A stretch of 64,000 nucleotides of DNA, taken from NCBI GenBank assembly GCA_013178015.1, contig JABLXR010000027.1, positions 1-64,000 of the forward strand, read 5' to 3'. Under the pieces are notes generated by a model that saw only the letters and a program-made list of their open reading frames with translations, did no database searches and was not told the DNA's origin. Shown here one piece after another: positions 47,504 through 56,930 of this stretch. Made by a program: the position numbers and the translations under genes. Positions within the stretch are counted from its first letter, which is position 1; each line of letters begins with the position of its first letter. Origin of the DNA: Anaerolineae bacterium (lineage in GTDB: Bacteria > Chloroflexota > Anaerolineae > DRVO01).

Positions 47504-48907
47504 CTACTTCCGAGCCTCGGCCTGGAGCTTGATCGCCTGGCGGACGCCGCCGATGTACAGCGTCTCGTAGGCCTGCTCCGACGTCTTGAAGGCTCCCACG
47601 CCCTCATGCCCATGCCAGTCGCCCTGGTGATGGATGGGATTAGGCAGTCCCGTTTCCTCCTCTCGCCGGGCGATATGCGCCTGCATGCGTGCGCGCAGGT
47701 ATTCCACCACCTCTGGCTCGCTGTCGGCCAGGTTCTCGTTCTCCTCGGGGTCCTGGATCAGGTTGTACAGCTCCACCGGTGGCTTGAAGTGGAAGTCCGG
47801 CTCCAGGGCCTCGATGAGCTTCCACTCCGGGGTGCGCCAACCGTGCTTGCGCATCCAGGTGCATTCGGTGAGGTAGATCTCGCTCTCGAAGGAGGGTTCC
47901 TCGCCGCGCACCAACTGCATCAGGCTTCGTCCGTCCATCTGGTAGTCGCCCGGGTCTATCTCGGCCAGCTCCAGTATGGTGGGCAGCAGGTCCTTGTGCT
48001 GGTTGTACCCTCCCACTCTCACGCCCGCCGGCACCTTGGCCGGGTAGCGGATGATGAGGGGTACGTGGAGAGTGGGATCGTAGAGCCCATGGTGATCGAA
48101 GTAGCACTCGTGGTCGTAGAGGGTCTCTCCGTGGTCGGAGTTGATGACCACGATGGTATCGTCCAGGATGCCCAGCGTCTCCAACTGGGTGAAGAGCGTC
48201 TGCATGCAGGCGTCCATGTAGGCCACGGCGCCGTCGTACTGGGCGATGACGTAGTCCTTGTCGGTGATGCCAGGCGGCATCCAGGAGGCGAAGAAGTCGC
48301 GGAAGGGCTTGAAGGACATCACCGGCTCCATGGACTTGTTGGCCGGGTCGGTCTCGTTGCCGTGGTAGAACATGCGCTCGTAGGGCTCGGGCGGCAGGTA
48401 GGGCGCGTGTGGATCCATGTGCCGCAGGAAGAGAAAGAAGGGCTTACGGGCCCGGGCCAGCCGTTCTAGCTCGGGCACGGTCACTTCGTTGAGGTTCTGA
48501 GCTTTGGGGCTGCGACCCTCCTCCCAACTCCCCCAACCGGCGAATTCGATGTACTTGTCGAAGTCGCGGGAGGCCGGGTTGCCCTTGAACCCGACCGAAG
48601 TGGTGTTGTAGCCGGCTTCCTTGCAGATCTGGGCCAGCGTCCTGGCCTCGGAACGCATAGCACCTTTGTGGCGCAGTGCTACCACCTGGGTGCCGAACGC
48701 GTCCCGTCCGGTGAACATATTGGCGTAGGCGCTGGTGGTGGGTATGTGGGCGCTGTAGGTGCGCTCGAAGAGGGCACCTCCCCGGGCGAACCGGTCAATG
48801 TGAGGAGTGGTGAGGCGGTGGTAGCCATAGCACGACATGTGATCGGCCCGGAGTGAGTCAATCCCGAATAGCACGATGTTGGGCTTGCGCCTGCGTCTGG
48901 TGGCCAT
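47504..48907 (-). CDS. sulfatase-fold (alkaline phosphatase superfamily) hydrolase lacking the Cys/Ser nucleophile motif
   Basis: A 467-residue enzyme of the sulfatase fold. Metal ligands are seen in FGIDSLRAD (Asp17) and INSDHGETLYDH, and the family tail includes HWR/EWK-type segments (RTPEWKLIEALEPD, LYNLIQDPEENENLAD). At the place of the C/S-x-P-S-R maturation motif the sequence is TTSAYANMFTG, so Thr57 (or Thr58) replaces the formylglycine precursor. Thr is the nucleophile in phosphoethanolamine and lipoteichoic-acid-type phosphotransferases. A phospho- rather than sulfo-ester role is therefore possible. No signal peptide is evident. Confidence 0.85.
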   Translation of the reverse strand: MATRRRRKPNIVLFGIDSLRADHMSCYGYHRLTTPHIDRFARGGALFERTYSAHIPTTSAYANMFTGRDAFGTQVVALRHKGAMRSEARTLAQICKEAGYNTTSVGFKGNPASRDFDKYIEFAGWGSWEEGRSPKAQNLNEVTVPELERLARARKPFFLFLRHMDPHAPYLPPEPYERMFYHGNETDPANKSMEPVMSFKPFRDFFASWMPPGITDKDYVIAQYDGAVAYMDACMQTLFTQLETLGILDDTIVVINSDHGETLYDHECYFDHHGLYDPTLHVPLIIRYPAKVPAGVRVGGYNQHKDLLPTILELAEIDPGDYQMDGRSLMQLVRGEEPSFESEIYLTECTWMRKHGWRTPEWKLIEALEPDFHFKPPVELYNLIQDPEENENLADSEPEVVEYLRARMQAHIARREEETGLPNPIHHQGDWHGHEGVGAFKTSEQAYETLYIGGVRQAIKLQAEARK

Positions 48908-49289
48908 GGTCTCCTCTTGCAGCTCTCTAGGCCGCGCGGACGTGGGTGGTCCAGGCAGGACCGTCGCCTCTGGCCGGCGCGGACACCTTTTGTGGCAGGT
49001 AGCGCGATTCTACCCCGCCAGGCCGCAGTTGCATAGTGTGAGCAGCGGCAGACGTTGCCGCAGAGTGCGTCACTGCTCAGCCGCGCGCTGAAGGGCGCTC
49101 TGGGACCATCCTTCGCGCCCAGCAGCCCAGCCGCAGTCCCTCAGGGCCAGGCACAGCCCGGCCGTGTCGGCGAGTGCCCTTTTGACAAGCTCAGAGCCTG
49201 GCGCAGGGGCAGGCTTCGCGCGCCCCGCGCTCCTCCACAGATTGACACTGCCACCTCGCCACCCTATAATCGGCCCCAGTTGAATACGC
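48908..49289. other. intergenic region upstream of the cobalamin riboswitch
   Basis: About 380 bases between the divergent sulfatase-fold gene and the riboswitch. A TTGACA-like box at 49240-49245 followed by TATAAT at 49265-49270 (17-19 base spacing) gives a clear sigma-70-type promoter for the B12 operon just upstream of the aptamer. No gene is supported. Confidence 0.6.
49240..49270 (+). promoter_or_regulatory. sigma-70-type promoter of the B12 operon
   Basis: A TTGACA box (49240-49245, in cagattgacactgcc) and a TATAAT box (49265-49270, in ccctataatcgg) are separated by 19 bases, about 20 bases upstream of the riboswitch P1 stem. Both hexamers match consensus exactly, rare in this high-GC sequence; the spacing is slightly long. 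Confidence 0.75.
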
Positions 49290-49411
49290 AGGCGATGGTG
49301 TCCTGAAGCCCGGACGCCAAGGCTTAATGGGGAAAGACCGGTGAAAGTCCGGCGCTGTCCCGCAACTGTAACCCCGATGTCGGGGGAGCCAGAACACCCG
49401 CCATCGCCCTG
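49290..49411 (+). ncRNA. cobalamin riboswitch (AdoCbl/B12 box)
   Basis: The core is unmistakable: GGGGAAAGACCGGTGAAAGT, then CCGGCGCTGTCCCGCAACTG and the downstream GGGGAGCCAGAACACCCGCC. P1 forms from caggcgatgg and ccatcgccctg. The riboswitch normally lowers expression of B12 synthesis or uptake genes when B12 is plentiful. It precedes a six-kilobase operon for two surface proteins and an ECF transporter. Confidence 0.97.
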
Positions 49412-49497
49412 CTTTCAGCACCTGCGTGGACAGGGGGCGGAAGCACGAGCAGGACGGCGACGCTCATCCAGCGCCTGAATCCTCCTCTCGATGCCCG

Positions 49498-49524
49498 CTG
49501 ACCCCGACCTCCCGTCGGGGTCAG
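49498..49524 (+). terminator. expression-platform hairpin of the cobalamin riboswitch
   Basis: An 11-bp perfect stem, ctgaccccgac/gtcggggtcag, with a 5-base loop lies about 90 bases after the aptamer and 65 bases before the first start codon. It could act as a regulated terminator or, paired alternatively, release the ribosome-binding site. The T-run expected of a classic terminator is weak. Confidence 0.6.
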
Positions 49525-49589
49525 GTGGTGTGTAGCCCCAACTTCGCGCCGATCGCGGAGCCGCAGGTATATCGCTGAGGAGGTACGCT

Positions 49590-50741
49590 GTGAGAGGTCG
49601 CCCTTTGCTGTCACTCGTGCTGCTCGTGTCCCTTCTCCTGTTCTCAGTCCTTCCGGCACACGCCAGTGCCCCTGAGGCCGTCAACTGGCTCAAAGCCCAG
49701 CAACGTCCGGACGGCGGCTTCGGCATGGAGCAGAGCACCCTTTCTGAGACCGCCGAGGTAGTCTACGCCCTGGCTGCTGCGGGCGAGGACCTGACTTCCG
49801 TGGCAGTTGGGGGCAACAGCCCGCTCGACTTCCTGGCCGCCAATGTGGACCAGGCCACTACCGTGGGCGCTCAGGCGAAGGTGGCTCTCGCCTTCACCGC
49901 CGCTGGCCGCGATGCCTCCGACGTGGATGGCGTCGATCTCATCGGCGTTATCGGGGACAGCCTGGACGCCGAGGGCAAGTTCGGCGGCCCGGAGGCCATC
50001 CTCACCGACCACCTCTACGCCATGCTGGCTCTGACTTCGGCCGGACAGGAGGTACCTTCTGCAGCGGTGGACTGGCTGGTCGCCCGGCAGGCCCCCAACG
50101 GCGGTTGGGCCTGGAACGCCTCCCCCGACGAGGCCGATACCGACAGCAACACCACCGCCCTGGCGCTGCAGGCGCTAGTGGCCGCCGGCGTCGCCTCCGA
50201 TGAACTGGCGGTCACCTCAGCTCTGGAGTACCTGCGCGGCCTCCAGAACGAGGATGGCGGCTTCTGCTATCAGAAGCCCTCGCCCTACGGCACCGACACC
50301 GACGCCAACTCCACCGCCGTCGTCCTACAGGCGCTGGTGGCGGTGGGCGAGGACCTGGCCGACTGGGTCAGCAGCGAGGGCAACGGGCCCCGGGACGCGC
50401 TGGCAGCGCTGCAGAACCAAAGCGGCGCCTTCGCTTGGCAGGCAGCCTTCCCGGACAACAACCTCCTGGCCACCGCTCAGGCCGTACCGGCGTTGCTCGG
50501 ACGGCCCTATCCCATCGCCGTGACCCCGGTCGGGGCGGAACCGCCCGTGGCCGCCATGGAAGCCACGCCCGTCCCCACCGAGACGGCGGCCCCTCTCGAG
50601 CCCGCTACCACCCCGGCTCCCGTCGTCCCCACCACGGGCGGCGTCCTGCCCTCCACCCCGTGGGGGCAGATCCTCATGGTCACCGGGGCGCTTCTCGCCG
50701 GCGGAGGCTACCTCCTGCGCCGGCGACTGGGCCAGCGCTGA
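49590..50741 (+). CDS. secreted squalene-cyclase-like repeat protein; putative cobalamin-binding alpha-type protein with C-terminal anchor
   Basis: A 383-residue exported protein. Signal peptide 1-25. Residues 25-315 hold alpha-toroid repeats with the motif LxxxQxxDGGFxx (WLKAQQRPDGGFG, WLVARQAPNGGWAW, YLRGLQNEDGGFCY, ALQNQSGAFAW). This is the fold of prenyltransferases and of the alpha domain of intrinsic factor/transcobalamin. A Pro/Thr-rich linker leads to LPSTPWGQ, a hydrophobic helix and RRR, an LPXTG-like anchor. The GTG at 49590 has GAGGAGG 8 bases upstream. The riboswitch upstream and ECF genes downstream make B12 capture the likely role; direct binding is inferred. Confidence 0.85.
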   Translation: MRGRPLLSLVLLVSLLLFSVLPAHASAPEAVNWLKAQQRPDGGFGMEQSTLSETAEVVYALAAAGEDLTSVAVGGNSPLDFLAANVDQATTVGAQAKVALAFTAAGRDASDVDGVDLIGVIGDSLDAEGKFGGPEAILTDHLYAMLALTSAGQEVPSAAVDWLVARQAPNGGWAWNASPDEADTDSNTTALALQALVAAGVASDELAVTSALEYLRGLQNEDGGFCYQKPSPYGTDTDANSTAVVLQALVAVGEDLADWVSSEGNGPRDALAALQNQSGAFAWQAAFPDNNLLATAQAVPALLGRPYPIAVTPVGAEPPVAAMEATPVPTETAAPLEPATTPAPVVPTTGGVLPSTPWGQILMVTGALLAGGGYLLRRRLGQR

Positions 50742-50787
50742 GGCTACCATCCATCCGGCCGAACGAGGGGAACCAGAGGACGGGACC

Positions 50788-51654
50788 ATGAGTCAGTCGA
50801 GCGCCCTGCCCAGGACGTGCTGGGCGCGCAACAATCGTAGGGGCGAACCTTGTGTTCGCCTGTGCACCGAGCGGATGAACACAGGGTTCGCCCCTACGGC
50901 AGCGGGCCTGGCTGGGACGAACTCGTGCAGCCAGGCAGGAGCACGCCGCGGGGCGGACGTGCTCCGCCTAATGTTGGTCGCGCTGCTGCTCGTCCTGGCG
51001 ACGCTCTCACCCGGCTCCCCGGCGCTAGCTCAGACGCCCTCGTTCGGCAGCGCCGGTCTGATCGTGGAGTACGGGGACGGGCGGGCCGACGTCTTCTGCC
51101 TCACCTTGCCTCGGGAGAGCGTCACCGGAACCGAGCTGCTTCAGCTCAGCGGGCTGCCGGTGGGCATGGCTACAGCAGGGATGGGCACTCAGATTTGCCA
51201 GATCGGGGAGGTCGGCTGCGAGCCCGGCCGCCAGCACTGCTTCTGCCAGTGCCTGGGCACTCCCTGCACCTATTGGACCTACTTCTACTGGAAAGACGCC
51301 GCCTGGATCTACTCCCCGCTGGGGCCCGGCCTGCGCCAGGTGAGCGATGGCGACGTGGACGCCTGGGTATGGGGCGACGGAACGACGCTCCCAGCCACCC
51401 CTGCCGATGCGGCCTGTGCTCCCTCTGCCAGTGCAGTTCCAACGGCGGCGGTGACCGCCACTGCCACGGCGGCACAGCCTAGCGAGGCCGCCACGGCCAC
51501 CGTCGCCCCGGCCCCTCCTTCCGAGGCCAGCCCGGAACGCACCGTCTCTCCTACCGCGGAGCCGGCCGTGGGTACCGGCCTGGCCTGCCCGTCGGCGGTT
51601 CTGCTGTTACTGCCCCTGGGGCTTCTGGGCGCCCTGGCCTGGGCGAGGAGATAG
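50788..51654 (+). CDS. secreted DUF4430-like protein; putative cobalamin-binding beta-type protein
   Basis: A 288-residue protein. Residues about 62-82 form the signal helix (LMLVALLLVLATLSPG), so the true start may be ATG 50971 or GTG 50959. The ATG at 50788 has GAGGA upstream but yields a 60-residue leader, part of which is an inserted inverted repeat. The folded part (about 85-200) resembles DUF4430, the transcobalamin beta-domain relative: GLIVEYGDGRADVFCLTL, ELLQLSGLPV and YWTYFYWKDAAWIYSPLGPG, with several Cys (CEPGRQHCFCQC). A Thr/Ala linker and a C-terminal helix with RR anchor it. Presumed partner of the alpha-type protein. Confidence 0.82.
   Translation: MSQSSALPRTCWARNNRRGEPCVRLCTERMNTGFAPTAAGLAGTNSCSQAGARRGADVLRLMLVALLLVLATLSPGSPALAQTPSFGSAGLIVEYGDGRADVFCLTLPRESVTGTELLQLSGLPVGMATAGMGTQICQIGEVGCEPGRQHCFCQCLGTPCTYWTYFYWKDAAWIYSPLGPGLRQVSDGDVDAWVWGDGTTLPATPADAACAPSASAVPTAAVTATATAAQPSEAATATVAPAPPSEASPERTVSPTAEPAVGTGLACPSAVLLLLPLGLLGALAWARR
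50836..50898 (+). repeat. inverted repeat (GTAGGGGCGAACC family) inside a coding 5' end
   Basis: The left arm cgtaggggcgaaccttgtgttc (50836-50857) pairs with the right arm gaacacagggttcgcccctacg (50877-50898) with one mismatch over 22 bp. A short spacer rich in cggatg separates them. It lies between the best ribosome-binding site and the signal-peptide helix of the beta-type protein gene and stays in frame. It looks like a small mobile palindromic element. Confidence 0.85.
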
Positions 51655-51658
51655 AGCC

Positions 51659-52717
51659 GTGTTCCATCCGGTGGCCTTGACCTTTTGGGTGGTGGCAGCG
51701 GCTGCCGCCGCTCTGGGGACGCGTAACCCCCTCTATCTGTCGCTACTACTACTGGTCGTCTGGCTCACTTACTCCGCCGCCCGACGCTACAACCCTCGCG
51801 CCCGCTGGGGCAGCATCCTCAAGCTGGGGCTGTGGGTGTGGGGCATCACCATACCCTTCAATGCCCTGTCCTCTCACATTGGACGCTACGTCCTCTTCAC
51901 CCTCCCCCGCAACTGGCCCGTCATCGGAGGGCCGGTGACCGCCGAGGGGGTGCTTTTCGGCTTCCTCAACGGGCTGGCGCTGGTGCTGTTACTCACCACC
52001 TTCGCCGCCTTCAACACTGCTGTGGAGCAGCACGAGCTTCTCCGGCTCGTCCCTTCCGCCTTCTACCACGCAGGCATGATCGCCTCCATCGCCGTCACCT
52101 TTGTCCCGGTGATGACCGCGACCTTCGAGGACATCCGCCAGGCCCAGACGCTGCGCGGGCACCGCTTTCGCGGCCTGCGCGACCTACTTCCTCTGATCGC
52201 GCCCCTGCTGGCCAGCGCCCTGGAGCGGTCCATCCAGCTGGCCGAGGCGATGGAGGCTCGAGGCTACGGTAGCGGCATTCGGCCCCTGGCCCCCGGACGT
52301 AACGCTCTTCTCCAGATCGGGCTTCTCATCGGGCTGCTGTCCCTCACTGGCGGGCTCTTCGTCCGGGCCTACTACCCCGACGCCCGCTCGCTGGGAGACG
52401 CGCTCTCGTTGGCAGCCGGAGGGGGCATCGCGGCTATCCTCTGGTACCAGGGGCGCAGGGTGCACCGCTCCTACTACCGGGTATGGCGCTGGGATTGGCC
52501 GAGCCGGATAGTGGCCCTTCTGGCAGCAGTCTCGTTCCTGGCTCTGCTCACGGCGAACCGCTGGAGTGCCACCGGGCTGGTCTACTACCCCTATCCCCCG
52601 GGCGACCTGCTGCCGTCGTTCGATCCGCTGCTCGGGATGGCACTGCTGCTGCTGGGGGCGCCGGCAGCGATGTCGGCCCGCTCGTCTGCGCCGGAGGTGG
52701 TGCGTGCCGAGTCGTGA
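51659..52717 (+). CDS. ecfT: ECF transporter transmembrane subunit EcfT (CbiQ-like)
   Basis: A 352-residue membrane protein with about six helices. It carries both EcfT coupling motifs: QAQTLRGHRFRG (near 160-171) and EAMEARGYGSG (near 196-206), the Ala-Arg-Gly signatures that bind the ATPases. The C-terminal 100 residues add two further helices and are longer than in typical CbiQ. The GTG at 51659 lies 4 bases after the preceding stop. It couples ATP hydrolysis to S-component toppling. Confidence 0.92.
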   Translation: MFHPVALTFWVVAAAAAALGTRNPLYLSLLLLVVWLTYSAARRYNPRARWGSILKLGLWVWGITIPFNALSSHIGRYVLFTLPRNWPVIGGPVTAEGVLFGFLNGLALVLLLTTFAAFNTAVEQHELLRLVPSAFYHAGMIASIAVTFVPVMTATFEDIRQAQTLRGHRFRGLRDLLPLIAPLLASALERSIQLAEAMEARGYGSGIRPLAPGRNALLQIGLLIGLLSLTGGLFVRAYYPDARSLGDALSLAAGGGIAAILWYQGRRVHRSYYRVWRWDWPSRIVALLAAVSFLALLTANRWSATGLVYYPYPPGDLLPSFDPLLGMALLLLGAPAAMSARSSAPEVVRAES

Positions 52718-52835
52718 CCGGGGGAAGGCGGCTACGCAGGGCCGCCCCTTCGACAGCCCGCCTGCCTGCGAACACGCAGTAGGGGCAGGGCTGCGAGACA
52801 CGGCTTCGCCGTGTGCGCTTGCGCCTGCTTCAGGA

Positions 52836-54443
52836 GTGGTGGGGCATAGCAGAGGCAGCCCCGTTAACCTGCGCCAGGTGACCTACCGCTATCCCGATGC
52901 CGACCGCTCGGCGTTGGAACGGGTGGACTTGGACCTGGGGGAGGGGGAGTTAGCGCTGGTGATGGGCCCCAGCGGCGGCGGCAAGTCCACCCTGCTACGT
53001 TGCCTCAACGGACTGGTCCCCCACTTCTATGGCGGCGTCTTCTCCGGAAGGGTGAGCGTCTTCGGGCGGGAGCCGGTGGTCCTCGGGCCGCGAGGTATGA
53101 GCGACCTGGTGGGGTTCGTCTTCCAGGACCCGGAGGCGCAGTTCATTGTGGATGACGTGGAGGGAGAGCTCGCCTTCTCCATGGAGGCCCGCGGATACCC
53201 CAGAGCCGAGATGGTGGAGCGAGTGCGAGAGGTCAGTCGCCAGCTGGGTATCGAGGCCCTCCTGGGGCGCCGGCTCAGCACTCTCTCCGGCGGGCAGCGG
53301 CAGAGGGTAGCGGTAGCCGCCGCCCTGGCCCTGCGCCCCCGGCTGCTGGTGCTGGACGAACCTACCTCTCAGCTGGATCCCATGGCAGCGGATGAGTTGC
53401 TGTCCACCCTGGTACGCCTGAACCGGGAACAGGGCCTTACAGTCCTCCTCTCCGAGCACCGGCTAGAGCGGGTGGTCCCCTACGCCGACCGCATCGTCTA
53501 CTGCTCCGGGCCCGGCGGCCCCCTCACCGTAGGCAGTCCACGCCAGGTGCTGCCCCAGGTGCCCCTGGCCCCGCCCGTCGCGGCGTTGGGGCGCCACCTT
53601 AGGTGGACTCCTCTCCCTCTCACGGTGGATGAGGCGCGGCCCTTCGCCCGCGACCTCCCTCCTTCGAACAACGGCCATCGCGCCCATCCGGCTCCCGGTG
53701 AGGTACGCTTGGCCATGCACGGCGTCTGGTACAGTTATCCCGAGGCCACTGCGCTCCGGGGCGTAGACCTAGAGCTGCGGCAGGGAGAGATCCTGGCCCT
53801 GCAAGGCCACAACGGCGCCGGCAAGACCACCCTGCTAAAGGTCCTGGTGGGGCTGCTCAAGCCCGAGAAGGGAGAAGCCCTGCTCGATGGCGCCAGCGTG
53901 GCCGGCCTGGGCCTGCACCAGGTCATCCGCCGAGTCGGGTTCGTGCCCCAGAGCCCCGGCAGCCTTCTCTTCCAGGACACGGTACGGGCGGAGCTGGAGT
54001 TCACCCGTCGCAGCCATGGCCTACCGGCGCGCGACCCCATGGCGCTGTTGGAGCGGCTCGGCCTGGCCGAATACGCCGACACCTACCCCCGCGACCTGAG
54101 CCAGGGGGAACGGCAGCGGGTCGCCCTGGCCGCCATCCTCGTCGCCGAGCCCGAGATCCTTCTCCTGGACGAGCCCACCTTGGGGCTGGACTACCTGCAG
54201 AAGGCGCGGCTGGTGCAGATACTGCGGGAACTCCGCGATGAGGGGAAGTCGGTCCTCATGGCTACCCACGACGTGGAGCTGGTGGCCGCCTGCGCCGACC
54301 GGACGGTCGTCTTGCAGGACGGCCGTGTCCTCGACTCCGGCCGCCCGGGCGAAGTGATGCTGCGCCACGAAGGGTACGCCTCCCAGATCAGTCGACTCTT
54401 CGGCGATGGAGAGCGCCTGACCGTCGAGGACGTGCTGGCATGA
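52836..54443 (+). CDS. ecfA: fused EcfA-EcfA' energy-coupling ATPase
   Basis: A 535-residue protein with two complete ABC domains. Domain 1: Walker A GPSGGGKST, signature LSGGQRQ, Walker B LLVLDEPTSQLDP, and a switch His in LSEHRLE. Domain 2 (from about 290): GHNGAGKTT, LSQGERQ, ILLLDEPTLGLD, MATHDVEL. The two are fused into one chain instead of being separate EcfA1/EcfA2. The start is uncertain because 52720-52835 contains repeat-like sequence and no good ribosome-binding site; GTG 52836 or 52839 begin just before the first beta strand. The gene overlaps the S-component by 4 bases. Confidence 0.93.
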   Translation: MVGHSRGSPVNLRQVTYRYPDADRSALERVDLDLGEGELALVMGPSGGGKSTLLRCLNGLVPHFYGGVFSGRVSVFGREPVVLGPRGMSDLVGFVFQDPEAQFIVDDVEGELAFSMEARGYPRAEMVERVREVSRQLGIEALLGRRLSTLSGGQRQRVAVAAALALRPRLLVLDEPTSQLDPMAADELLSTLVRLNREQGLTVLLSEHRLERVVPYADRIVYCSGPGGPLTVGSPRQVLPQVPLAPPVAALGRHLRWTPLPLTVDEARPFARDLPPSNNGHRAHPAPGEVRLAMHGVWYSYPEATALRGVDLELRQGEILALQGHNGAGKTTLLKVLVGLLKPEKGEALLDGASVAGLGLHQVIRRVGFVPQSPGSLLFQDTVRAELEFTRRSHGLPARDPMALLERLGLAEYADTYPRDLSQGERQRVALAAILVAEPEILLLDEPTLGLDYLQKARLVQILRELRDEGKSVLMATHDVELVAACADRTVVLQDGRVLDSGRPGEVMLRHEGYASQISRLFGDGERLTVEDVLA

Positions 54444-55213
54444 GGTACCTGAACCACGCCATCCTGCTGGCAGCCAGCCTGCTGGGCGCCGGGTCCCTGC
54501 TCCTGCCCTTCTTCGCTCCGCCAGCGGGCGCGGACCAGGCCGGGCCCATGGCCCACGCGGGGGACGCCCCGGTCATCTTCGTAGCCCTGGTGGTGCTCTG
54601 CCTGGGTGCCGTGGCCGCCAACCTGGCCGGTCGGCAGATGAACTCCAAGGTCATGGCGGTCCTAGGGGTCCTAACCGCCATGAATGCCGTGCTGCGGGCC
54701 ATCCCCGGCCCGGGCGGCTTCAGTGCCATCTTCGTGCTCCCCATCCTGACCGGCTACGTCTACGGGTCCACCTTCGGCTTCTTGCTGGGCTCCCTCAGCC
54801 TGCTGATCTCGGCCCTCATCGGTGCCGGCATTGGGCCCTGGTTGCCCTACCAGATGCTCTGTGCCGGGTGGGTGGGTATGATCAGCGGCTGGCTGCCCCA
54901 TCTGCGCCGGCCCCAGGCCGAGATGGCCGTATTGATAGGCTGGGGAGTCCTGTCCGGCCTCATCTTCGGCGCCGTCATGAACCTGTGGTTCTGGCCCTTC
55001 ATCAACGTTCCCGGCGAGGCGGACCTTTACTGGAGTCCAGGGGCCACCCTGGCCGAGGGACTCCGGCGTTACCTGGCCTTCTACCTGCTGACCTCGGCCT
55101 GGTGGGACGCCATGCGCGCCGCAGGCAACGCCGTGCTGCTGGCCCTGTTTGGCCGGGCCCTGGTGACCACCCTGCGCCGTTACCAGCGCCGCTTCCAGTT
55201 CTCCCTGGGCTGA
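54440..55213 (+). CDS. ECF transporter S component, likely cobalamin (CbrT-like)
   Basis: A 257-residue membrane protein with about six helices. It has the S-component feature of small residues in the first helices and PGPGGFSAIFVLPILTGYVYGSTFGFLLG (near 90-118), and an MLCAGWVGMISGWLP segment typical of the ECF-type S family that includes cobalamin- and vitamin-related proteins. Its ATGA overlap with the ATPase gene and the upstream B12 riboswitch point to cobalamin or a precursor as substrate. The N-terminal 40 residues (GADQAGPMAHAGD) form an unusual extracytoplasmic loop. Confidence 0.85.
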   Translation: MRYLNHAILLAASLLGAGSLLLPFFAPPAGADQAGPMAHAGDAPVIFVALVVLCLGAVAANLAGRQMNSKVMAVLGVLTAMNAVLRAIPGPGGFSAIFVLPILTGYVYGSTFGFLLGSLSLLISALIGAGIGPWLPYQMLCAGWVGMISGWLPHLRRPQAEMAVLIGWGVLSGLIFGAVMNLWFWPFINVPGEADLYWSPGATLAEGLRRYLAFYLLTSAWWDAMRAAGNAVLLALFGRALVTTLRRYQRRFQFSLG

Positions 55214-55292
55214 TACGGGAGAGCAAGAAACGGATTGAGTTGGTGCGGCCGCGTTAGTACAGTGTCGGTCAGCATGCCGTTTGGGAGGTATC

Positions 55293-56132
55293 GTGTCTCA
55301 AGTGGATGACTACCGGCTGGTGGAACGGGCCATCGGCTACCTGGAGGCCAACTTCATCCGGCAGCCGAGCCTGGCAGAGGTGGCAGCGGCCGTGAACCTG
55401 AGCGAGCACCACTTTCACAGGCTGTTCCGTCGTTGGGCCGGCATCAGCCCCAAGCGCTTCCTCCAGTTCCTCACCCTCGAGTACGCCAAGGAGCTGCTGC
55501 AGGAGTCGCGGGCGCTGCTTGAGGTGACCTACGAGGCCGGGCTATCCGGCCCGGGCCGACTCCACGACCTATTCGTCACGCTGGAGGCGGTGACCCCGGG
55601 CGAATATCGGCGGCGGGGCGATGGGCTGACGATCGAGTACGGGGTGCATCCTTCTCCCTTCGGCTACTGCCTCTTAGCCGCTACGGAGCGGGGCATCTGC
55701 GCCCTGCACTTCGTCGATGACGGCGACCCGTCCGCGGCTCTGGCAGAGCTCAGGCACACGTGGCCAGGAGCCCGGCTGGTGGAGAGCCCGGAAAGCACCG
55801 GGCGGCTGGCCGAGGCGGCCTTCTCCGGCGACGTGCCTCTGGCCTTGTTCGTCAAGGGCACCAACTTCCAGGTGCAGGTCTGGCGGGCGCTGCTAAGCAT
55901 CCCTCCCGGCCACGTGCTTTCCTACGAGGATGTGGCGGGCATGATCGGCCGCCCGACGGCATCTCGAGCGGTGGGCAACGCCGTGGGCAGCAACCCGGTG
56001 GGCTACCTTATCCCCTGCCACCGGGTGATCCGCAAGACGGGGCGCTTCGGGCACTACGGCGGCGGCCCGCTGCGCAAGCGGGCCATGCTGGGATGGGAGA
56101 TGGCAGCGCGCGAGCGCGAGGCCACGGAGTAG
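55293..56132 (+). CDS. AraC-type HTH fused to O6-alkylguanine-DNA methyltransferase (Ada-like)
   Basis: A 279-residue DNA repair/regulatory protein. Residues about 8-110 form an AraC-type double helix-turn-helix (PSLAEVAAAVNLSEHHFHRLFRRWAGISP). The rest is MGMT, with the active-site IPCHRVI near 245-251, the RPTASRAVGNAVGSNP helix-turn-helix, and GGGPLRKRAMLGWE. The N-terminal methylphosphotriester Cys domain of full Ada is absent. The GTG at 55293 has GGGAGG before it. It probably repairs alkylated bases and may regulate its own expression. Confidence 0.95.
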   Translation: MSQVDDYRLVERAIGYLEANFIRQPSLAEVAAAVNLSEHHFHRLFRRWAGISPKRFLQFLTLEYAKELLQESRALLEVTYEAGLSGPGRLHDLFVTLEAVTPGEYRRRGDGLTIEYGVHPSPFGYCLLAATERGICALHFVDDGDPSAALAELRHTWPGARLVESPESTGRLAEAAFSGDVPLALFVKGTNFQVQVWRALLSIPPGHVLSYEDVAGMIGRPTASRAVGNAVGSNPVGYLIPCHRVIRKTGRFGHYGGGPLRKRAMLGWEMAAREREATE

Positions 56133-56278: not shown

Positions 56279-56584
56279 ATGCTCGACTTTGACCGTATCC
56301 GGGACGAGGTGCTCGAACTGCTGGGCCCCTACGGGGTCAGGCGCATAGCAGTGTTCGGCTCCGTGGCCCGCGGCGAGGAAGAAGAGGGAAGCGACATTGA
56401 CATACTGGTCACGTTCGAGCGCCCATTGCGCAAGCCTCTGGGGTTTCGCCTAGCGGGGATAGAACAGGAACTGGGAGAGCGCCTCGGGCGTCGCGTGGAT
56501 CTCATATCTGAGGAGGCCCTCAGTCCCTACATACGCCCGTACGTTGAAGAGGAAGAAGTAGTGCTCTATGAAGAAGCGAGTTGA
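56279..56584 (+). CDS. mntA: MntA-like nucleotidyltransferase antitoxin
   Basis: A 101-residue MNT protein with VFGSVARGEEEEGSDIDILV (near 27-46) and a third acidic strand (LGRRVDLISEEAL). MntA homologues polyAMPylate and silence the HepT RNase. The ATG at 56279 lies after GGAGGAGGG and overlaps no upstream gene. The HepT-like gene begins within this gene (17-base overlap). Confidence 0.93.
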   Translation: MLDFDRIRDEVLELLGPYGVRRIAVFGSVARGEEEEGSDIDILVTFERPLRKPLGFRLAGIEQELGERLGRRVDLISEEALSPYIRPYVEEEEVVLYEEAS

Positions 56585-56930
56585 CGCCGTCTATCTGCAT
56601 CACATGCTCGACGCTGCCCGCGAGATAGACTCCTTCCTCGCCGGCGTATCTGAAGCGCTGTTCTACCAGAACAGGATGCTACAGAGCGCCGTTGCCCACC
56701 AGTTGCAGGTCATTGGTGAAGCCGCCCGGCAGGTGTCAAGGGAGTTCCAGGCTGAGCATCCAGAGGTGCCTTGGTCGGACATCATCGGTACCAGGCACCG
56801 CATCGTGCACGACTACCTCAATGTCGACTTGGCGGTAGTGTGGTCGGTGACACAGGAGGACCTGCCGGCGCTGAGAGGCCAGTTGGCCACTATCCTTTCG
56901 TCTTTGGAGTCCGACCCCGATGCGTCTTAG
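56568..56930 (+). CDS. hepT: HepT-like ribonuclease toxin (DUF86)
   Basis: A 120-residue HEPN RNase. The catalytic motif R-x(4)-H-x-Y is exact in GTRHRIVHDYLNVDL (near 78-92). The remainder fits the four-helix HEPN dimer (HHMLDAAREIDSFLAG, QSAVAHQLQVIGEAA). Together with the upstream nucleotidyltransferase it forms a standard MntA/HepT type VII toxin-antitoxin pair, the clearest of three such pairs in the window. The following DUF1638 gene overlaps its end by 11 bases. Confidence 0.95.
   Translation: MKKRVDAVYLHHMLDAAREIDSFLAGVSEALFYQNRMLQSAVAHQLQVIGEAARQVSREFQAEHPEVPWSDIIGTRHRIVHDYLNVDLAVVWSVTQEDLPALRGQLATILSSLESDPDAS

Follow-up and report, generated by a model that had tools for sequence, protein, structure and literature searches.

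A cobalamin-riboswitch operon in an Anaerolineae bacterium encodes an α/α toroid, a transcobalamin-like surface protein and a CbrT-related ECF transporter, and probably serves corrinoid scavenging

Introduction

Many microbes are limited by vitamin B12, which is scarce, and little is known of its capture at the surface of bacteria without a BtuB-type outer-membrane route. In the BtuG-BtuB and BtuH systems of the Bacteroidota, a surface capture protein feeds a B12 importer, the transporter being TonB-dependent and located in the outer membrane. We describe here an operon in a 64,000-nucleotide stretch of the genome of an Anaerolineae bacterium (contig JABLXR010000027.1, assembly GCA_013178015.1; hereafter “the window”), in which a cobalamin riboswitch precedes genes for two surface proteins, one an α/α toroid and the other carrying an SLBB domain, and for an energy-coupling factor (ECF) transporter. 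Surface capture before B12 import would be common to this operon and the Bacteroidota systems, but the folds of their proteins differ and no homology to the window proteins was seen.

The closest described systems are those of Burroughs et al. 2007 (PMC1796856), in whose passages on the subject bacterial transcobalamin-like SLBB domains, often found with toroids and encoded with CbiO/CbiQ, were predicted to be B12 scavengers, and the animal B12 carriers were proposed to have come from bacteria. This prediction was itself drawn from sequence context; an experimental test of it did not turn up in the open-access literature searched. The operon and its relatives resemble the systems of those passages in the secreted or anchored SLBB, the toroid partners or fusions, the EcfA/EcfT-type operons and the hosts poor in B12 synthesis; whereas the earlier examples came mainly from low-GC Gram-positives and planctomycetes, ours are from Chloroflexota and Actinomycetota, and they differ further in having no DUF4430 sequence match, a cysteine-rich SLBB, two SLBB classes, and fusions of the SLBB to S components or BtuF. 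A term search of the 2007 paper finds no riboswitch, and its passages on these systems name no S component. The window operon is a case of the 2007 prediction in another phylum, and the novelty lies in the fusions to S components and to BtuF. Neither a B12 riboswitch survey, nor the CbrT link, nor these fusions were found in the open-access literature searched, where SCO2321/2322, cbrTUV and DUF4430 together with riboswitch likewise gave no relevant paper; subscription work on Cbr-type transporters lies outside that scope.

The animal carriers transcobalamin, haptocorrin and intrinsic factor have the same two folds as the window pair, at a sequence identity of about 10%. They combine both domains, whereas the window toroid and SLBB are separate chains, and where the two are fused in bacteria the SLBB comes first and the toroid second, the reverse of the order in transcobalamin. 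Animal carriers rely on endocytosis, whereas the bacterial system would hand its load directly to a transporter. Among ECF transporters, CbrT (group II) draws on an ECF module that other S components also use, and no surface binder is known for it, whereas in the window the module is encoded together with an S component and surface binders. ECF-CbrT of Lactobacillus delbrueckii, an experimentally shown cobalamin/cobinamide importer whose crystal structure is 6FNP (PMC5997447), has a related S component, an EcfT and two EcfA, as here.

On the evidence below, we consider it probable (about 0.85) that the window encodes a B12-repressed operon which scavenges cobalamin or other corrinoids through capture by the toroid and the SLBB protein and hand-off to the CbrT-like ECF transporter.

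Results

The operon opens with a sigma-70 promoter (TTGACA, a 17-bp spacer, TATAAT; 49242-49270, + strand) that agrees with the consensus at 12 of 12 positions. It is the only such site found in a promoter scan of 48900-55500, and shuffled versions of the region yield 0.2 sites even for the weaker 9/12 class. The transcript start expected from this promoter coincides with the beginning, at 49280, of a cobalamin riboswitch aptamer (49280-49419, + strand; RF00174, full model length, E 9.1e-15), which is the sole Rfam match within the window and scores 68.4 bits against a gathering threshold of 31.5 bits. A putative translational expression platform follows (49481-49583, + strand), where the Shine-Dalgarno sequence GAGGAGG (49577-49583) pairs with CCUCCUC (49481-49487) in a leader RNA predicted to fold at -102.5 kcal/mol (z -3.4). 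Given this predicted pairing, and since the search downstream of the riboswitch gave no T-run terminator, control is probably translational. The genes for the toroid, the beta-domain protein, EcfT, a fused EcfA-EcfA and an S component are all on the + strand. A preliminary description of this DNA had already named the exact-consensus promoter, the riboswitch, the gene set on one strand and a complete ECF importer, and each of these was borne out, the last by Pfam and TIGR matches.

The transmembrane component EcfT (51659-52717, + strand) matches CbiQ (PF02361, 4.7e-15) and EcfT chains of the PDB (3e-6), and the fused EcfA-EcfA ATPases (about 52836 to 54443, + strand, the start codon being approximate) match TIGR04520 (E 1e-98) and TIGR04521 (E 4e-97) in two copies; EcfT and EcfA are ordinary members. 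The S component (54440-55213, + strand; PF07155, 9e-7) is of the PF07155/PF12822 type and related to CbrT: a profile of its family (18 sequences) finds a single significant PDB chain, 6fnp_A, at E 2.2e-7. The operon encodes its own S, T and two A components, an arrangement that is conserved in relatives and is that of the group I ECF transporters.

By its gene content, the host looks like a corrinoid salvager, apparently unable to make B12 itself. Neither CbiC nor CbiD was found in the genome (95% completeness), which has 14 matches to B12-binding domains and, in 4.57 Mb, three B12 riboswitches including that of the operon; the other two precede a cob(I)alamin adenosyltransferase gene and cobT-cobS-cobC-cobU, names that were read from sequence rather than by profile search. 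A B12-controlled importer of cobalt (or nickel), akin to Cbi/NikMNQO, would also account for a CbiQ-like EcfT, for weak matches to CbiM (PF01891) in 2 of the 18 S components, and for the riboswitch, as cobalt importers are often under such control (PMC3766115). The window S component itself has no CbiM match, however, being of a type whose sole PDB relative is CbrT and not CbiM or NikM; a genome in which CbiC and CbiD are not found should have little need of cobalt for corrin synthesis; and transcobalamin-like domains, or the BtuF fusions described below, would be senseless for a metal ion. We therefore rejected cobalt import, on the CbrT-type S component, the salvage genome and the BtuF fusions, and hold it to be very improbable.

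The first surface protein (49590-50741, + strand) consists of a signal peptide, a toroid at approximately residues 25-310 and a C-terminal anchor. It matches Prenyltrans (PF00432, 1e-10) and SQHop (PF13243, 1e-9), while its best NCBIfam match, the actinobacterial SCO2321_fam (NF053823), reaches 125.7 bits and stays under the cut-off of 300. The Pfam matches, together with a model of a fused homologue, give it the α/α toroid fold found in the alpha domain of transcobalamin. The sortase-type anchor (50625-50738, + strand), composed of VPTTGG, a transmembrane segment and RRR, lines up with the LPTTGG, LPVTGG and LPESGG tails of relatives, and three sortases are present in the host genome; these tails and sortases lend credibility to the LPXTG-like anchor that the preliminary description had assigned to a squalene-cyclase-like repeat protein. 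Secreted toroids without a transmembrane anchor (at loci L071, L082, L136, L137, L139 and others) often end in a short VYLPLVxR-like motif, which in Chloroflexota may be a sorting tail not recognised so far.

A toroid profile has its best matches in squalene-hopene cyclases, and transcobalamin is absent among the best 60 matches listed, so that no specific sequence kinship to it was found. In Pfam, in sequence searches and in Foldseek alike, squalene or terpene cyclases come out as the best matches, and the toroid could be a terpene cyclase-like enzyme, or else a generic protein of the cell wall, whose place in the operon is accidental. The type II cyclase motif DxDD(T/S)A nevertheless occurs in 0 of 91 toroid open reading frames, the window toroid included; the protein is secreted and anchored; and toroids are conserved under B12 riboswitches, either beside SLBB domains or in one chain with them. 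The missing motif and the conserved SLBB pairing led us to reject a cyclase role, and the same pairing a chance neighbourhood, which makes this explanation of the toroid very unlikely.

The second surface protein (P0002; 50959-51654, + strand) lies in a frame that is open from 50788. An inverted intergenic repeat that is probably non-coding fills 50837-50897, between the toroid and SLBB genes, so that the true start is probably GTG 50959; starting there also yields a clean signal peptide, followed by a transcobalamin-like beta-grasp domain, a P/T-rich linker and a C-terminal transmembrane helix. The repeat itself, GTAGGGGCGAACCTTGTGTTCGCC, inside the operon and upstream of the SLBB gene, resembles a mobile intergenic repeat. 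By sequence, P0002 matched no Pfam family; DUF4430 (PF14478) in particular gave no match in P0002, in any of 32 family members or in the host genome, and an SLBB profile search of the PDB found nothing useful. The actinobacterial SCO2322_fam (NF040672), the best NCBIfam match, is touched by 31 of the 32 members at E values up to 1 (best 1.3e-9), the window protein scoring 17.4 bits against a cut-off of 85.

Structure prediction was more informative. The modelled SLBB domain (51016-51399, + strand; AlphaFold pLDDT 94.2, pTM 0.85) has as its top Foldseek match in the PDB the Ruminococcus structure 3u7z, annotated as a putative metal binding protein, which we take to be a DUF4430 protein; next come the beta domain of transcobalamin, both with cyanocobalamin and without it, then transcobalamin, haptocorrin and intrinsic factor, all at probability 1.00, with E values of 1e-4 to 3e-2, TM-scores of 0.53-0.66 (by query length) and identities of 6-18%. 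The model has strands at 12-18 and 24-30, a helix at 38-44, a hairpin at 49-54/57-63, and then 85-93 to 114-120, that is, a beta-grasp whose helix is followed by an inserted beta-hairpin, the insertion that in the passages of Burroughs et al. 2007 (PMC1796856) defines the transcobalamin-like SLBB clade. The predicted structure, rather than the sequence, confirms a transcobalamin beta-domain fold; of the DUF4430-like protein with a C-terminal anchor that had been proposed, the carrier-type fold and the anchoring helix stand, and the label DUF4430 finds no counterpart in the sequence.

Sampling of the same class gave relatives of P0002 in 120 of 249 genomes. All 20 of the same-class neighbourhoods fetched carry a B12 riboswitch, where about 0.01 per 14 kb would be expected by chance from the three in the host genome, and nearly all have the toroid and ECF set. 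A scan of named genomes yielded 80 loci, nearly all in Chloroflexota and some in Actinomycetota; a toroid is present in 42 of the 49 with enough upstream sequence, and both toroid and EcfT in 20 of the 24 with both flanks. Among 17 further loci, picked as distant or unusual, 13 have the riboswitch, for an overall count of 33/37 scanned neighbourhoods; these calls were made by Rfam, a simple B12-box pattern having caught only about half of known riboswitches. The preliminary description had been prepared to give up its proposal should the gene pair occur mostly without B12 riboswitches, and the opposite was found. The set extends to the Actinomycetota, where L140, L144 and L145 combine toroid and SLBB genes with neighbouring EcfT-EcfAA-S genes and a B12 riboswitch.

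In some relatives these parts are joined in one polypeptide, which suggests that the surface proteins and the transporter work together. At least 12 genomes encode an SLBB and one or two toroids on a single chain, SLBB first; one such chain (L055) was modelled with pLDDT 91 and pTM 0.86, and transcobalamin and haptocorrin are among its Foldseek matches. Five genomes (L044, L056, L057, L058, L059) have an SLBB, a P/T-rich linker, a transmembrane helix, a basic linker and an S component in one open frame. They belong to one family, their SLBBs forming one clade (support 98), and the frame is held over approximately 100 divergent junction residues. S components start inside the cell, and this topology fits, because the transmembrane helix brings the chain inside. 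The link between SLBB protein and S component that had been proposed for the window has direct backing in these five fusions. At three further loci (L123:8896-10263, L129:2921-4294, L133:1890-3233) an SLBB is joined to a BtuF-like Peripla_BP_2 domain; the L123 gene lies between genes read from sequence as BtuC-like and BtuD-like, and two of these loci, L123 and L129, have a detected cobalamin riboswitch. Two unrelated importer receptors have in this way gained the same SLBB domain.

A tree of 151 SLBB domains, built by a quick method of limited resolution, separates two classes with moderate support (87). SLBB-1 comprises the toroid-fused and PEP-CTERM-tailed domains, mostly grouped together, and SLBB-2, placed apart, comprises the transmembrane-anchored, S-fused and BtuF-fused ones. 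The window operon has one toroid and an SLBB-2 only. The C termini of SLBB-1 proteins in Chloroflexota (L038, L039, L041, L048, L051, L054, L064 and others) resemble PEP-CTERM signals, of the form xPEPATxLLLGxGLxGLAGYxRRRR; LPxTG-like tails are carried by toroids at loci other than these.

Several further observations concern the relatives and the surroundings. Apparent single-chain ECF transporters, with S-EcfT-EcfA-EcfA in one open frame, occur at L060/L111 (1363 codons) and L062 (1436 codons), and L120 and L127 have EcfT-EcfA-EcfA within one frame. Downstream of the operon, the genes at 55281-56132 and about 56280-56930 were read by eye as an AraC-MGMT (Ada-like) fusion and an MNT/HEPN-type toxin-antitoxin pair. 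A selenocysteine tRNA elsewhere in the genome (L034, 13770-13864, contig C13) indicates that the host probably makes selenoproteins.

Discussion

We propose that at low intracellular adenosylcobalamin the riboswitch would permit translation to start, and that the cell would then display two surface-tethered proteins, the α/α toroid and the transcobalamin-beta-like SLBB domain, which together would catch a corrinoid outside the membrane in the fashion of transcobalamin. The SLBB protein, held by its one transmembrane helix beside the transporter, would pass the corrinoid to the CbrT-like S component, and the dedicated EcfT-EcfA-EcfA module would pump it in. Corrinoid capture and hand-off by this operon are well supported, and the import of B12 or another corrinoid, as suggested in the preliminary description, agrees with a riboswitch at nearly all relatives, with CbrT as the one relative that the S component has in the PDB, and with a salvage-only genome.

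Several findings weigh against the proposal. No riboswitch was found at L130, L111, L147 and L133, although at L147 and L133 a contig end may have truncated the locus, and some loci, such as L040, have no toroid nearby. The toroid is closer to squalene cyclases than to transcobalamin, in sequence as in the order of Foldseek matches, and P0002 falls in SLBB-2 and not in the toroid-fused SLBB-1. A BtuF/BtuC-like pair is encoded on another contig, so the operon may not be the sole route for B12.

The form of the capture step is where these points matter most. The earlier suggestion that the window proteins are the two halves of a transcobalamin-like clamp stands for the second protein, which has the transcobalamin beta fold; it finds less backing in a toroid lacking specific sequence kinship to transcobalamin and an SLBB outside the toroid-fused class. 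Because the window has one toroid and an SLBB-2, unlike the toroid-fused SLBB-1, we put the exact two-protein clamp no higher than plausible. SLBB-2 alone might instead present the corrinoid to the S component, with the toroid as an independent binder or a spacer. This would explain why SLBB-2 is fused to S components and BtuF with no toroid in the chain, why L040 lacks a detectable toroid nearby, and why in many loci the toroids have an SLBB-1 partner of their own; yet toroid and SLBB genes are kept together in the 42 of 49 loci noted above, including one-toroid, SLBB-2-only loci like the window, and the two folds occur together in animal carriers as well as in the fused chains of bacteria. 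Import without a two-chain clamp is possible but, in our judgement, rather doubtful.

The two-class split suggests a relay, in which a toroid and SLBB-1 would catch the corrinoid and SLBB-2 would hand it over; in the window, both steps may fall to SLBB-2, or the toroid may act alone. We are evenly divided on whether SLBB-2 is, more generally, a portable corrinoid hand-over module that takes the vitamin from a toroid-based catcher and docks it on whichever importer receptor the cell employs, be it an ECF S component or BtuF. If it is, an extracytoplasmic B12 relay related to the transcobalamin beta domain would be common to two unrelated types of transporter. With the SLBB-toroid, SLBB-S and SLBB-BtuF proteins, each a single chain, the scavenger prediction can be tested on one purified polypeptide at a time, and such fusions bear on the possible descent of the animal B12 carriers from bacterial uptake proteins.

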